Positions 23,392-28,540 of a stretch of 64,000 bases of DNA are shown piece by piece; positions within the stretch are counted from its first letter, which is position 1; the number at the start of each line of letters is the position of its first letter. Source of the stretch: Marinobacter algicola DG893 (GTDB lineage Bacteria > Pseudomonadota > Gammaproteobacteria > Pseudomonadales > Oleiphilaceae); the NCBI RefSeq assembly GCF_000170835.1, contig NZ_ABCP01000007.1, positions 1-64,000 on the forward strand, read 5' to 3'. The notes beneath the pieces were generated by a model. The model saw nothing but the letters and a program-made list of their open reading frames with translations. It made no database searches and was not told where the DNA came from. The position numbers and the translations under genes are program-made.

Positions 23392-25257
23392 ATGCGCACT
23401 TCGCTTCGGTTCGCGCTGGCCCTTATCTGGCTGGCATCCTGTCTTAATGCATTTGCCTCATCGCTCCCCGACACCGGAAACCTGCATCTGAATCCTGCGT
23501 GGCTGACCCTGCTCCATTACCAACCCGATCGCTTTGGCGACGGCTACACCGGTCAGGCGGACGACGATGCCTTCTATCTCAGCGACAACGGCAAAACCTC
23601 ACCAAAGGCGGAGTTGGAAGCCACACTCACGGCCATCACCCAACCCGGAGGCGGAAATGAGCACGCGCGCTGCCGCTTCCCGGCACGGGACCGCTGGCTG
23701 AGGACGCAACTGGACCTGCCGGGGCACCCCGTAAACTGCCCCGCTTTCGAGGAATGGACCGACGAGTTGAATACTGAAACCGTGACCCTGGTGTTCGCCG
23801 CGTCGTATCTGAACAGCCCATCGTCCATGTTTGGTCACACGTTCCTACGCCTCGACCCACCCCGGGAAGACGAAGAAACGAACCTGATCCTGGCCAACAC
23901 CATTTCCTATGCCGCCGATGCAGCTGCACACGACAGCGAAATCCTGTTTGCCTACAAAGGCATTTTCGGTGGCTACCCGGGCATTACCTCTATCCAGCCC
24001 TACTACGAAAAAATTCGCCTCTATTCCGACATTGAGCACCGGGACCTGTGGGAGTACACCCTCAACCTCACCCAGGCGGAAGTGGACATGATGCTCGCCC
24101 ATACCTGGGAGATACGCGACCGCAACTTCGATTACTACTTTTTTGACGAAAACTGCGCCTACCGCCTGCTGGCCCTGATCGACGTCGCCCGACCCGGCAC
24201 CGACCTGCTGGGGGAAGTTGGCACCCATGCCATTCCCTCGGACACGGTGCGATGGGCTGTCGACAAGGGGCTTGTCGACTCCGTCTACTACCGCCCCTCA
24301 GCAGCCACCAACGTCAGCCACCGCATCGACGCCCTGTCGGACGATCATCAGACACTCGCCGCCGCCATCGCCAACGGGTATGTGGATGCCGATGCGCCCG
24401 AGGTACAAGCGTTAAGCGATGAGCCGCGTGCGAGGGTGCTGGACGCCACCTACGACTATGTTCGCTACCAAAGCGAAGCCGAGGGCTGGCCCAGGGAACA
24501 CGCAGCCCCACTCTCCCATGACCTGCTAAGGGAACGCAGCGAGATCCGCGGGGTCGCAATACAGGACGGCCCCCCGGAGCCTGCCATCCGGGACGACCAG
24601 GGCCATGACACCTTTCGCGCCAGCGTCAGCGGCGGGCGCATGGGTGACCGCAACTTTAGCGAACTCACGTTACGCCCCGCCTACCACGATGTACTTGACC
24701 CTCCCGCAGGCTACCGTGGCGGAGCACAACTCCAATTCCTGCGCCTGGACGCCCGCCTTTACACGGACAACGACGAAGTACAGGTTGAACAACTGACCGG
24801 CGTGGAAATCCGCTCCCTCTCGCCGCGCAACCAGTTCTTCTCGCCACTGTCCTGGCAAGTCGGCTTCGGCGGCCGCCGCACTGACACCGAAACCAACCGC
24901 GTATTCACCCCCTACCTCGAGGGCGGTGCCGGTGGAAGCTGGCGACTGACAACCGGCACCCAGGCCTTCGCCATGGCCACCGCCGACCTGGAAATCGACA
25001 ACGACCTGCGCAGCGGTTACGACGCTGCGCCCGGCGCCGATCTGGGCATACTCCACCAAAACAACCAGTTCAGCCTTCTGGGTGGCGTGAAAACCAAGGC
25101 CTGGATCGTCAGCAACCAACACCGCCAGGACCAAGCCTACCTGGAAGGCAACTGGCACCTCGGACGGGACTTCAGCCTGTTCGGAAAATTCAGCCGTGAA
25201 GACCACTACGACAGGTACCGCAGCACATGGCAACTCGGACTCCACGCCTACTTCTGA
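23392..25257 (+). CDS. DUF4105 (Lnb-like) exported protein
   Basis: 621 residues with a signal peptide (about 1-24, ...CLNAFASSLP). The central part carries the DUF4105 pattern: CRFPARDRWL, FAASYLNSPSSMFGHTFLRLD, a run of conserved aromatic residues, and FDYYFFDENCAYRLL. DUF4105 is related to a lacto-N-biosidase-associated domain; Cys and His residues in these motifs suggest a papain/NlpC-like fold, but activity is unproven. The C-terminal 200 residues look like alternating beta strands ending in Phe (LGLHAYF), suggesting an outer-membrane barrel. Its last 31 bp overlap the next gene. Confidence 0.82.
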   Translation: MRTSLRFALALIWLASCLNAFASSLPDTGNLHLNPAWLTLLHYQPDRFGDGYTGQADDDAFYLSDNGKTSPKAELEATLTAITQPGGGNEHARCRFPARDRWLRTQLDLPGHPVNCPAFEEWTDELNTETVTLVFAASYLNSPSSMFGHTFLRLDPPREDEETNLILANTISYAADAAAHDSEILFAYKGIFGGYPGITSIQPYYEKIRLYSDIEHRDLWEYTLNLTQAEVDMMLAHTWEIRDRNFDYYFFDENCAYRLLALIDVARPGTDLLGEVGTHAIPSDTVRWAVDKGLVDSVYYRPSAATNVSHRIDALSDDHQTLAAAIANGYVDADAPEVQALSDEPRARVLDATYDYVRYQSEAEGWPREHAAPLSHDLLRERSEIRGVAIQDGPPEPAIRDDQGHDTFRASVSGGRMGDRNFSELTLRPAYHDVLDPPAGYRGGAQLQFLRLDARLYTDNDEVQVEQLTGVEIRSLSPRNQFFSPLSWQVGFGGRRTDTETNRVFTPYLEGGAGGSWRLTTGTQAFAMATADLEIDNDLRSGYDAAPGADLGILHQNNQFSLLGGVKTKAWIVSNQHRQDQAYLEGNWHLGRDFSLFGKFSREDHYDRYRSTWQLGLHAYF

Positions 25258-26096
25258 CAACTCTGAGAACACTGGCCAGCCTCATCGCCGCGTTTACCCT
25301 GCTGCTGCAGACCGGCTGCAGCAGCGTGTTCTTCTACCCAGACCAGGTTACCTACATCACCCCGGACCGACTGAACCTGGACTACGAAGATGTGTTCGTG
25401 GAAACCCCGGACGGCGAAACCCTCCACGGCTGGTGGCTCCCCGCCAATTCCGAACCGAAGGGGACTGTTTACTTCCTTCACGGCAACGCCCAGAACATCA
25501 GCAGCCACATCATGAATGTCGCCTGGCTGCCTGAGAAGCGCTACAACGTCTTCCTGATCGACTACCGGGGATATGGGCGCTCTACCGGCGCACCGGACAT
25601 AGAAGGCACCCTGCACGACGCAGAGACCGGTCTTCGGTGGCTGGTTGGACAACAGGACGTCGAAAACCGCCCCCTGTTCCTACTTGGCCAGAGCCTCGGC
25701 GGCGCACTGGGAACCGCCCTTGCGAGCGAATGGGTTCAACGCAATGAACAACCACCTCTTGATGGCGTCATCCTCGACGGCACCTTCTCCGGCTTCCGCG
25801 CCATCGCCCGTGAAAAACTCGGCGACTTCTGGCTCACCTGGCCGCTGCAGGTTCCATTGAGCTGGACGATCACTGACGAATACGAAGCTCACGAACGCAT
25901 CGGTGATATCAGCCCGGTTCCAGTGATGGTGATTCACAGTGTTCGGGACGGAATCATCCCGTTTCATCATGGGGAGCGATTATATGAAGCGGCGGCGGAA
26001 CCAAAATCGTTTTTGCAAACGGATACGCCCCACGCCTCAACATTTGTGATTCCGGGGTATCAGGAGGAAGTTCTGGAATTCATGGAAGGCGAGTAA
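25227..26096 (+). CDS. Alpha/beta-hydrolase lipoprotein
   Basis: 289 residues. An N-terminal lipoprotein signal ends in LLLQTGC (Cys about 31). The hydrolase core has the oxyanion region YFLHGNAQN, nucleophile elbow GQSLGG (Ser156), a likely acid in the VRDGIIPFHHGE strand, and a late His in DTPHAS. It resembles the YfhR/BEM46-like hydrolases; substrate unknown. The ATG lies inside the DUF4105 gene (31-bp overlap, different frame); no later ATG, GTG or TTG precedes the signal core, so the overlap is probably real and implies coupled translation. Confidence 0.88.
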   Translation: MATRTPRLLLTTLRTLASLIAAFTLLLQTGCSSVFFYPDQVTYITPDRLNLDYEDVFVETPDGETLHGWWLPANSEPKGTVYFLHGNAQNISSHIMNVAWLPEKRYNVFLIDYRGYGRSTGAPDIEGTLHDAETGLRWLVGQQDVENRPLFLLGQSLGGALGTALASEWVQRNEQPPLDGVILDGTFSGFRAIAREKLGDFWLTWPLQVPLSWTITDEYEAHERIGDISPVPVMVIHSVRDGIIPFHHGERLYEAAAEPKSFLQTDTPHASTFVIPGYQEEVLEFMEGE

Positions 26097-26105
26097 ACAG
26101 CCTGG

Positions 26106-26217
26106 GCGTCCGTCGCAGACAGGCTTTCAAAACCGTGGAGCGCCAGGGATGGCGCGACCGAGCCCTACAGGGACGTATTTACGTGGCGTGTTTTGAAAGC
26201 CTGTCTGCGACGGGCGC
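26106..26217. repeat. 112-bp palindromic intergenic element
   Basis: Near-perfect outer arms: 24 identical bases CCGTCGCAGACAGGC... (26110-26133) against their complement (26190-26213), extended by GCG/CGC at both ends. The interior holds smaller hairpins in series: GCGCCA-GGGA-TGGCGC (26140-26155), CCCT-ACA-GGG-type (about 26163-26172) and ACGT-ATTT-ACGT (26173-26184). It encodes nothing. It looks like a mobile palindromic or REP-like element. Confidence 0.75.
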
Positions 26218-26243
26218 TTCACAAGGATCGAAGGCCTGAAAAT

Positions 26244-26280
26244 AAAAAACCCGCCAAACTCCGAAGAGCGGCGGGTTTTT
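26244..26280 (-). terminator. Rho-independent terminator after pnp
   Basis: AAAAACCCGCC pairs with GGCGGGTTTTT (26270-26280), with A/T tracts on both sides, 15 bp beyond the pnp stop. It ends the rimP-to-pnp block and can also act on the plus strand. Confidence 0.88.
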
Positions 26281-26294
26281 GTCAAAGACAGAGC

Positions 26295-28418
26295 TTACAG
26301 CGCGGACAGATCCGTCGGCTGCTCACCTTCCTTCACTTCCTTCATGGACAGCTTCACGCGCCCCCGGTTGTCCACATCCAGAACCTTGACCAGAACTTCC
26401 TGACCTTCGCTCAGCTCGTCAGTCACATTCTCGATACGACGCTCGGAGATCTGGGAAATGTGCACCAGACCATCCTTGCCAGGCAGGATGTTAACAAAGG
26501 CGCCAAAGTCCACAATGCGCTCAACGCGACCGCTGTAGATAGCGCCAACTTCGATTTCCGCAGTGATTTCCATCACCCGCTTCATCGCAGCATTGGCCGC
26601 ATCCTGATTGTCAGCGTAGATCTTCACGTTGCCATCATCATCCAGATCGATGGAAGCGCCGGTCTCGTCACAGATAGAGCGAATGGTGGAACCGCCCTTG
26701 CCGATAACGTCACGGATCTTCTCCGGGTTGATCTTGATGGTGGTGATGCTTGGCGCGCGGCTGGAAAGCTCTTTACGCGGCGCAGAGATAACCTTCGCCA
26801 TCTCACCCAGGATGTGCAGACGTGCTGCATTGGCCTGGTCCAGAGCAATTTCCATGATCTCGTCAGTGATGCCCTGAATCTTAATGTCCATCTGCAGCGC
26901 AGTGATACCGTCCGAGGTACCCGCAACTTTAAAGTCCATATCACCGAGGTGATCCTCATCACCCAGGATGTCGGTCAGAACCGCGAACTGGTCGCCTTCC
27001 TTGACCAGACCCATGGCGATACCGGCCACCGGCGCCTTGATGGGCACGCCCGCGTCCATCAGCGCCAGGCTGGAACCACAGACAGACGCCATGGAGCTGG
27101 AACCGTTGGATTCGGTGATTTCGGACACCGCACGGATGGTGTACGGGAATTCTTCCATGGTGGGCATAACCGCTGCCACACCACGCTTGGCCAAACGGCC
27201 GTGGCCAACTTCACGACGGCCCGGCGTACCCACACGGCCAGCTTCACCAACGGAGTACGGAGGGAAGTTGTAGTGGAACAGGAACGGGTCTTTACGCTCA
27301 CCTTCCAGGGCATCGATGATCTGCATATCACGCGCAGTACCGAGCGTGGTGGTCACGATGGCCTGGGTCTCGCCACGGGTAAACAGGGCGGAGCCGTGGG
27401 TGCTGGGCAGAACGCCAACTTCCACTTCAATGGGGCGAACGGTCTTGTTGTCACGGCCATCGATACGCGGCTTGCCATCGATAACCTGCTGGCGAACGAT
27501 GGTCTTCTCAACCTTGGCGAAATACTTCTTCACTTCGTCTTCCGCCGGCTGACCTTCTTCCTCTCCGGCCAGTTTTTCAACGGCCGCGGACTTGATCTCG
27601 CTCAAGCGGGCATAGCGCTCCATCTTGTCACGGATACCATAGGCCTGCTCGATATCGGCCGAAAAGTCAGCCTTTACAGCGTTCAGAAGCTCAGTGTTCT
27701 CTGCTTCTGGCTGCCACTCCCAACGAGGCTTGCCAACTTCAGCGGCAAATTCCTTGATCGCGGTAACCGCTGTCTGCATTTCCTGGTGCCCGAAGAGCAC
27801 GGCGCCCAGCATCTGGTCTTCTGTCAGGCCCTTGGCTTCGGATTCAACCATCAGAACCGCGTCTTCAGTACCGGCAACCACCATGTCCAGCAGGGAGGTT
27901 TCCAGTTCTTCAAAGGTCGGGTTCAGGAAGTAGCCACGCTCGTTGGTGTATGCAACGCGGGATGCACCTATAGGACCATCGAACGGGATACCGGAGATGG
28001 ACAGGGCGGCGGAAGCGGCCAGCATGGCGGCAATATCCGGATCCTGGTTCTTGCTGGAGGACATGACCGTAGTGATGACCTGGGTTTCGTTCATGAATCC
28101 CTTGGGAAACAGCGGACGAATCGGACGGTCAATCAAACGGGACGTCAGGGTTTCTTTCTCGGACGGACGGCCTTCACGCTTGAAGAAACCACCCGGGATT
28201 TTGCCCACAGCGTAGGTCTTCTCGAAGTAGTTAACGGTCAGCGGGAAAAACGGCTGGCCCGGCTTGGCTTCCTTGGCGGCAACCACCGTACCCAGTACCG
28301 AAATGTCGTCTACGGTAACCAGCACAGAACCGGTAGCCTGGCGGGCGATGCGACCAGTTTCGATGGTGACGGTCTTGCCGCCGAGTTCGAACGATTTTTT
28401 AACGGGATTAAGATCCAC
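26295..28418 (-). CDS. pnp: Polyribonucleotide nucleotidyltransferase (PNPase)
   Basis: Phosphorolytic 3'-5' exoribonuclease of the degradosome, trimeric in the cytoplasm. 707 residues with two RNase PH domains ([23 protein letters not shown]; second core [23 protein letters not shown]), a KH domain ([20 protein letters not shown]) and a C-terminal S1 domain ([23 protein letters not shown]). I start at GTG 28418 ([14 protein letters not shown]): AGGAG lies 5 nt upstream and the length then matches the family. The ATG pair at 28439/28436 lacks a site. Its 5' leader contains a long imperfect hairpin, possibly the RNase III/PNPase autoregulation site known for E. coli. Confidence 0.96.
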
Positions 28419-28540
28419 GGTAACTCCTGAATTCATCATTTCAATTGGTTGACCCGGACAACTCGCCCCTGCGAATTATCCGCTATAACTGCAACATAGT
28501 CCGAAGTGATGAACTGAAGGGTAGCCCGTCTGAAAGCTAA

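Follow-up and report, generated by a model that had tools for sequence, protein, structure and literature searches.

What is the long palindrome that lies between two convergent genes in this piece of the Marinobacter algicola DG893 genome? The window, by which we mean the whole 64,000-nucleotide stretch that was analysed, holds it at 26106-26217. Its first base is 10 nt beyond a hydrolase gene's stop codon, and on its other side lie a terminator-shaped stem and the convergent pnp gene. A sequence-only reading called it too elaborate for a terminator and suggested either a mobile or REP-like unit, perhaps in many copies, or a structured RNA at the end of the hydrolase mRNA. We believe, with a probability of roughly 55%, that it is one copy of a repeated, dispersed, TwoAYGGAY-like RNA element that binds CsrA. 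The features on which the argument turns are these:

25227 to 26096, plus strand: alpha/beta hydrolase gene, upstream of the palindrome and on the same strand
26106 to 26133, plus strand: 5' arm of the long stem, pairing with 26190-26217, with changes on both sides in 19 of the 20 inner arm pairs across 55 copies
26134 to 26160, plus strand: hairpin 1, with closing pairs, GA/GA mismatches and the stem GCGCC/GGCGC, from sequence and covariation
26145 to 26150, plus strand: hexaloop of hairpin 1, AGGGAT, closed by C-G, from sequence
26162 to 26187, plus strand: hairpin 2, with outer pairs of the GCCC/GGC type, the stem TAC/GTA and then unpaired TTTAC, from sequence and covariation (helix 5)
26169 to 26174, plus strand: hexaloop of hairpin 2, AGGGAC, closed by C-G, from sequence
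26190 to 26217, plus strand: 3' arm of the long stem, pairing with 26106-26133
26243 to 26281 (about), unstranded: likely terminator common to both convergent genes, with an A-run, a CCCGCC/GGCGGG stem and a T-run, read from the sequence
26295 to 28439, minus strand: pnp (polynucleotide phosphorylase), convergent to the hydrolase gene

The palindrome is real. Its 28-nt arms, which enclose a 56-nt core, form Watson-Crick pairs at 27 of 28 positions (96% complementary), the sole exception being a T.G (U.G in RNA), and the portion next to the core is a run of 24 perfect pairs. A 126-nt stretch that contains it has a folding energy of -79.8 kcal/mol; shuffled sequence averages -45.3 (sd 4.0), which gives a z of -8.67, and none of 200 shuffles did as well. 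It is right to say that this is not an intrinsic terminator. We reject that candidate: no T-run follows the 3' arm, and there is no excess of T-runs in the downstream flanks of the family (20 of 207, against 40 of 207 upstream). The terminator-shaped sequence at 26243-26281 is separate from the palindrome and is also present in relatives that have no element; our terminator scan made no call there because the 14-nt loop exceeds the length the scan allows. Elsewhere in the window, at 1389-1460, there are imperfect 21-nt direct repeats that bear no relation to the palindrome.

The suggestion of many copies holds. BLAST and motif searches of the same genome return related copies with the same core and quite different arms. 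A covariance model, R1, was built from an alignment of 55 of the 67 elements kept, weak-arm elements and five loci having been excluded beforehand; its E-values are rough, and alignment A2 was fitted to it. R1 finds 27 matches at E <= 0.1 in the 4.4-Mb genome, including four that are truncated where a contig ends, and the core word stands at four further contig ends. Eight contig ends of this draft (C62, C33, C78, C24, C102, C66, C101 and C71) lie inside a copy or within about 30 nt of one. Assembly apparently tends to break at the palindromes, and the count for this genome is accordingly a minimum. The single-contig relative G063 has at least 106 matches, 103 of those 106 intergenic. At least 60 of the 61 sampled genomes of the genus are positive, this one included; across the Gammaproteobacteria sampled the figure is at least 67 genomes of 369, from 60 of 272 genera. 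Copies per genome in the genus run from none found in G059 to at least 106 in G063, with at least 69 in several others. These counts are lower bounds, with stricter filters in the genus-wide and 369-genome searches and with at most 69 candidates scored per genome in the genus set, 150 in G063 and 11 in the 369-genome set. A pattern scan of named genomes gave at least 80 records among the matches listed, all of them Marinobacter, and 75 of these loci were given to R1. The palindrome at 26106-26217 belongs to this Marinobacter family, whose copies are scattered and lie mostly between genes.

The copies keep the pairing of the arms and not their sequence. The outcome named beforehand as fatal to the sequence-only reading, a single copy whose arms are not conserved in relatives, is thus not what the genomes show. 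The inner 20 arm positions are paired in 98.7% of cases over 55 copies and 99.2% over the 106 copies of G063, and in each set 19 of the 20 pairs show changes on both sides. The arms, 26-30 nt long in 89 of the 106 G063 copies, are a scaffold of free sequence in which pairing is kept. The core consists of two hairpins, 1 and 2; both end in an A-N-G-G-A-N hexaloop that a C-G pair closes, and in the core type seen at 26106-26217 hairpin 1 carries GA/GA mismatches. The 106 G063 cores contain 210 of these GGA hairpin words (C-A-N-G-G-A-N-G): exactly two in 102 cores, where their starts lie 23-25 nt apart, one in 3 and three in 1. Across copies the stems covary and the GGA loops stay constant, and loops and core are better conserved than the arms.

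The sequence-only reading had placed three small hairpins in the core. All three are in the minimum-energy fold, but comparison supports only the first. Its second and third hairpins are paired in 75.1% of cells across the 55 aligned copies, against 74.7% for shuffled columns, with covariation of 0.073 against 0.068; of the seven pairs in this test, one had been misplaced by a column and never forms. The hairpin 2 that comparison supports is TAC-AGGGAC-GTA. Its helix 5 is paired in 98.4% of cells over 106 copies, with changes on both sides at two of three pairs, and the stem alternates between TAC/GTA, CAC/GTG and CCC/GGG around a constant loop. The outer pairs (helix 4) are weaker, at 66.8% of cells in the 106 copies. 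The minimum-energy fold of the 26106-26217 copy lacks this hairpin; the energy model alone does not select it. Two copies, L166:5128-5268 and L275:5492-5664, carry an insertion of additional DNA in the region of hairpin 2, and the first of them has a third ANGGA hairpin. Outside the arms, the G063 and named copies share weakly conserved words: GACTAT about 25 nt upstream, CACC immediately downstream and AGGCTAG about 15-20 nt away. They may mark where the copied unit really ends.

Mismatches in the arms show which strand folds. Double-stranded DNA cannot distinguish G.U from A.C and a folding strand can, so an excess of one over the other means that one defined strand folds. G.U exceeds A.C by 37:7 in G063 (p = 5e-6), by 49:11 in the named Marinobacter loci, by 29:4 in the first set and by 12:1 in 16 copies from other Gammaproteobacteria; the four sets share species and orthologues. 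Arms shorter than 20 nt were excluded, which removed 2 of 106 copies in G063 and 1 of 104 distinct arm pairs (105 elements) among the named loci, and the 16 copies are drawn from 30 matches, most near-identical G137 copies being left out. Purine-purine mismatches likewise exceed pyrimidine-pyrimidine ones by 36:3 in G063. With the covariation of arms and core, this is how a structured RNA behaves, as had been suggested. Copies that lie antisense to both of their neighbours show the excess of G.U undiminished (14:2), so the folding strand seems to be the element's own and not the product of read-through from a neighbour. RNA from the element's own or pervasive transcription would do as its source, and so would a single-stranded DNA stage; strand-biased mutation may also produce the asymmetry.

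How stable is the element at one site? The orthologous gap between hydrolase and pnp was compared at 30 of 31 loci. An intact element is present at 14, in every case on the sense strand of the hydrolase; the core comes in three or more types, and the arms differ. The other 16 comprise one fragment, twelve loci without an element, which have a terminator or other repeats after the hydrolase, and three without a hydrolase match. On a pnp tree of 15 rows with an element or fragment and 12 without, presence changes eight times, at least five of them on well-supported branches, and it shows no significant clustering (the number of changes was as low in 144 of 500 shuffles). Both a single old insertion with losses and repeated arrival are therefore possible. 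Between G007 and G017, whose flanks are mostly 93-98% identical, we aligned six differences. Three 'empty' alleles retain a piece of one arm, as would be expected if a deletion had run across the palindrome; L395/L401 is fully empty, L399 at 16705 is nearly empty and L400/L409 is a decayed copy. No clean insertion site with a target-site duplication appears among the six. Copies are readily lost or decayed between close species. The distant genome G137 has copies that are nearly identical and whose arms hardly differ, set within a mosaic of further palindromes, and the unit can therefore multiply. A hairpin of that mosaic in L360-L369, GGTGCANGGATGCACC, likewise has an ANGGAT loop. Other palindromes occur as well. 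A second short repeat of the TCGGATTA...TAATCCGACCTACG type is found in gaps of this sort too, in some cases next to the element (L133, L134 and L135 in the pnp flank, L392 before 8604, and L311), and one of the GGGGACAGACTT...AAGTCTGTCCCC type is found in the pnp flank of L140 and L144, several in a row in L140.

Several other explanations of the family have to be weighed, and the placement of the copies, read with a codon-based ORF caller written for this analysis, bears on all of them. If the element were a stabiliser or processing barrier at the 3' ends of mRNAs, its long stem blocking exonucleases and its loops irrelevant, then the very stable stem and the position between stop codon and terminator at 14 of 30 hydrolase/pnp loci would be as expected. 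However, the loops and core should not then be better conserved than the arms, and copies also lie upstream of genes, antisense to them and between divergent genes. We consider this improbable. The pairs between divergent genes first suggested a cis-regulatory 5' leader, which we reject as a general rule because pairs and singletons are present in every gene configuration. Tandem singletons from two sets pooled show a weak bias, 53 sense to 31 antisense (p = 0.02); taken by itself, the named set has 19 sense and 15 antisense (p = 0.61). All 26 close pairs counted in Marinobacter are (-)(+), that is head-to-head (13 of 13, 11 of 11 and, in the DG893 genome, 2 of 2), as are three more in the G007/G017 blocks; outside the genus, L370 and L376 supply two (-)(+) pairs, and L376 and L366 each contain one pair of neighbours on the same strand. 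Independent small RNA genes arranged head-to-head with their own promoters, the element being the mature RNA, would explain such pairs and a folding-strand asymmetry that is independent of the neighbouring genes. But 207 upstream flanks show no promoter-like enrichment, the pair spacers (54-211 nt) have no obvious common promoter, and the missing T-run excess downstream counts against such genes too, so we regard this as very improbable.

A selfish palindrome of the REP/BIME kind, moving as a single-stranded DNA hairpin in which one defined strand folds at transposition and the loops are read by a mobilising protein, with CsrA binding as a by-product, is a stronger competitor, although we still find it doubtful. 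High copy number, intergenic placement, weak orientation bias, head-to-head pairs whatever the gene configuration, near-identical G137 copies in a palindrome mosaic and turnover between close species all suit it, and a folded DNA strand would fit the G.T and G.A mismatches as well. Against it, the loops fit the CsrA rule at both fixed and free positions, and there is no clean target-site duplication. A REP-like unit had been suggested from sequence, with a search for its transposase as a check, and a REP unit with its transposase is not supported: none of the eight genomes searched has an element-linked Y1 transposase. No member of the family (E <= 1e-5) was found in the DG893 genome or in its relatives G009 and G034, where all 69 scored candidates are element copies, and the seven Y1 loci in the other five genomes have no element within about 1.5 kb on each side. 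Nor is a replication-strand preference evident in G063 (52 against 45, with bins lacking a clear skew excluded).

We return to the reading of the family as a CsrA-binding RNA. PMC7652899 gives the rule as an ANGGAN hexaloop in which N is free, with one dimer bridging sites 10-63 nt apart and best above 18. The element has pair-closed ANGGAN hexaloops and two sites within 10-63 nt. All 14 elements at the hydrolase/pnp gap lying on the hydrolase sense strand, and the end-to-end alignment of the TwoAYGGAY model, for which CsrA binding has been proposed, also count in favour. CsrA is present in 312 of the 369 genomes of the class: in 62 of 67 with the element and 250 of 302 without (Fisher p = 0.06). 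When only genomes of 90% completeness or more and 5% contamination or less are counted, it is in 54 of 55 with the element and 225 of 259 others (p = 0.016), an association confounded with genome reduction and relatedness. The element-bearing genomes without a CsrA match are G078, G139, G170, G266 and G413, and only G266 is more than 90% complete (98%). These five speak against the reading, as do the weak bias in orientation to genes, the undiminished G.U excess of antisense copies, the lack of promoter-like enrichment in the 207 upstream flanks, the ready loss or decay of copies and the absence of hairpin 2 from the minimum-energy fold at 26106-26217.

We infer binding, expression and spread for this divergent, high-copy TwoAYGGAY-like element, and CsrA is its most likely partner. 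The element would be transcribed on its folding strand, at 26106-26217 within the hydrolase mRNA just before the terminator. Its RNA would present a pair of sites within the bridging range of one CsrA/RsmA dimer, and each copy might recruit or titrate CsrA. New copies would arise through duplication of the unit and would often be lost by deletion across the palindrome. A bolder version can be offered only tentatively: a mobile palindrome family might carry a CsrA-binding RNA as payload, each copy adding a two-site CsrA dock to its host RNA, the whole forming a genome-wide, evolvable CsrA sink, with the Csr network rewired by copying and palindrome deletion, the arms exchangeable and only their pairing selected. 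If the CsrA reading is true, these bacteria may have CsrA landing sites all over the genome, in a set that shifts. It is important to realize that two questions, genome-wide titration or recruitment of CsrA by dispersed repeats and the spread of such repeats as RNA-bearing or single-stranded DNA hairpins, are now directly testable, thanks to the covariation, the CsrA-type loops, the strand asymmetry and the head-to-head pairs.

How does the element compare with what is known? REP and BIME sequences are short intergenic palindromes of high copy number, found in inverted pairs, with RAYT (Y1) transposases and a conserved GTAG-type tetranucleotide at the foot of the hairpin. The element is likewise short, intergenic, palindromic and high-copy with inverted pairs, but its arms differ and yet stay paired, its loops are of CsrA type, the words conserved in its flanks are other than the GTAG type and no Y1 transposase is linked to it. 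CsrB/C and RsmX/Y/Z are few sRNA genes with multiple CsrA sites per RNA. The element shares their GGA hairpin loops; unlike them it has two sites per copy, many dispersed copies and no promoter signal. The accounts in PMC9788540 and PMC5864184 also give few sRNA genes with several sites each, and the Marinobacter element is not among the marine CsrA-titrating sRNAs described in those sections. Literature searches turned up no relevant report, whether of a high-copy palindrome linked to CsrA or of its core words. Rfam at E <= 1 over 2.5 kb returned nothing but a match to Ysr224 at chance level, which was dropped.

In architecture the element matches TwoAYGGAY (RF01731). The model is covered end to end by the 26106-26217 copy (positions 1-168 of 168) at 24.6 bits, below the gathering cut-off of 43, so the copy is a divergent relative and not a member; none of ten matches in the DG893 genome passes the cut-off, the best reaching 34.1 bits. 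In the other direction, R1 on four above-cut-off RF01731 loci gives only weak matches of 22.8 and 14.3 bits on two and no match on the other two. Both loops of the 26106-26217 copy are AGGGAY, with G where the name TwoAYGGAY has Y, and the 210 G063 loops have any of the four bases in second place. The likenesses are a long outer stem whose sequence is poorly conserved, two GGA-loop hairpins, and multiple copies mostly paired (-)(+) in above-cut-off members elsewhere in Gammaproteobacteria (six such close pairs and one same-strand, G160 C40). The 2010 discovery paper, in its entry on the motif, calls it probably RNA and probably not cis-regulatory (PMC2864571); Rfam types it as Cis-reg. Gardner and Eldai propose CsrA binding for it and mention tandem GAs and an external stem of poor conservation (PMC4333381), and it is termed relatively unexplored where PMC11661157 mentions it. 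TwoAYGGAY has had no function assigned since 2010. Its divergent, high-copy form ties the loops to the CsrA rule and adds rich covariation, strand asymmetry of mismatches and head-to-head pairing.
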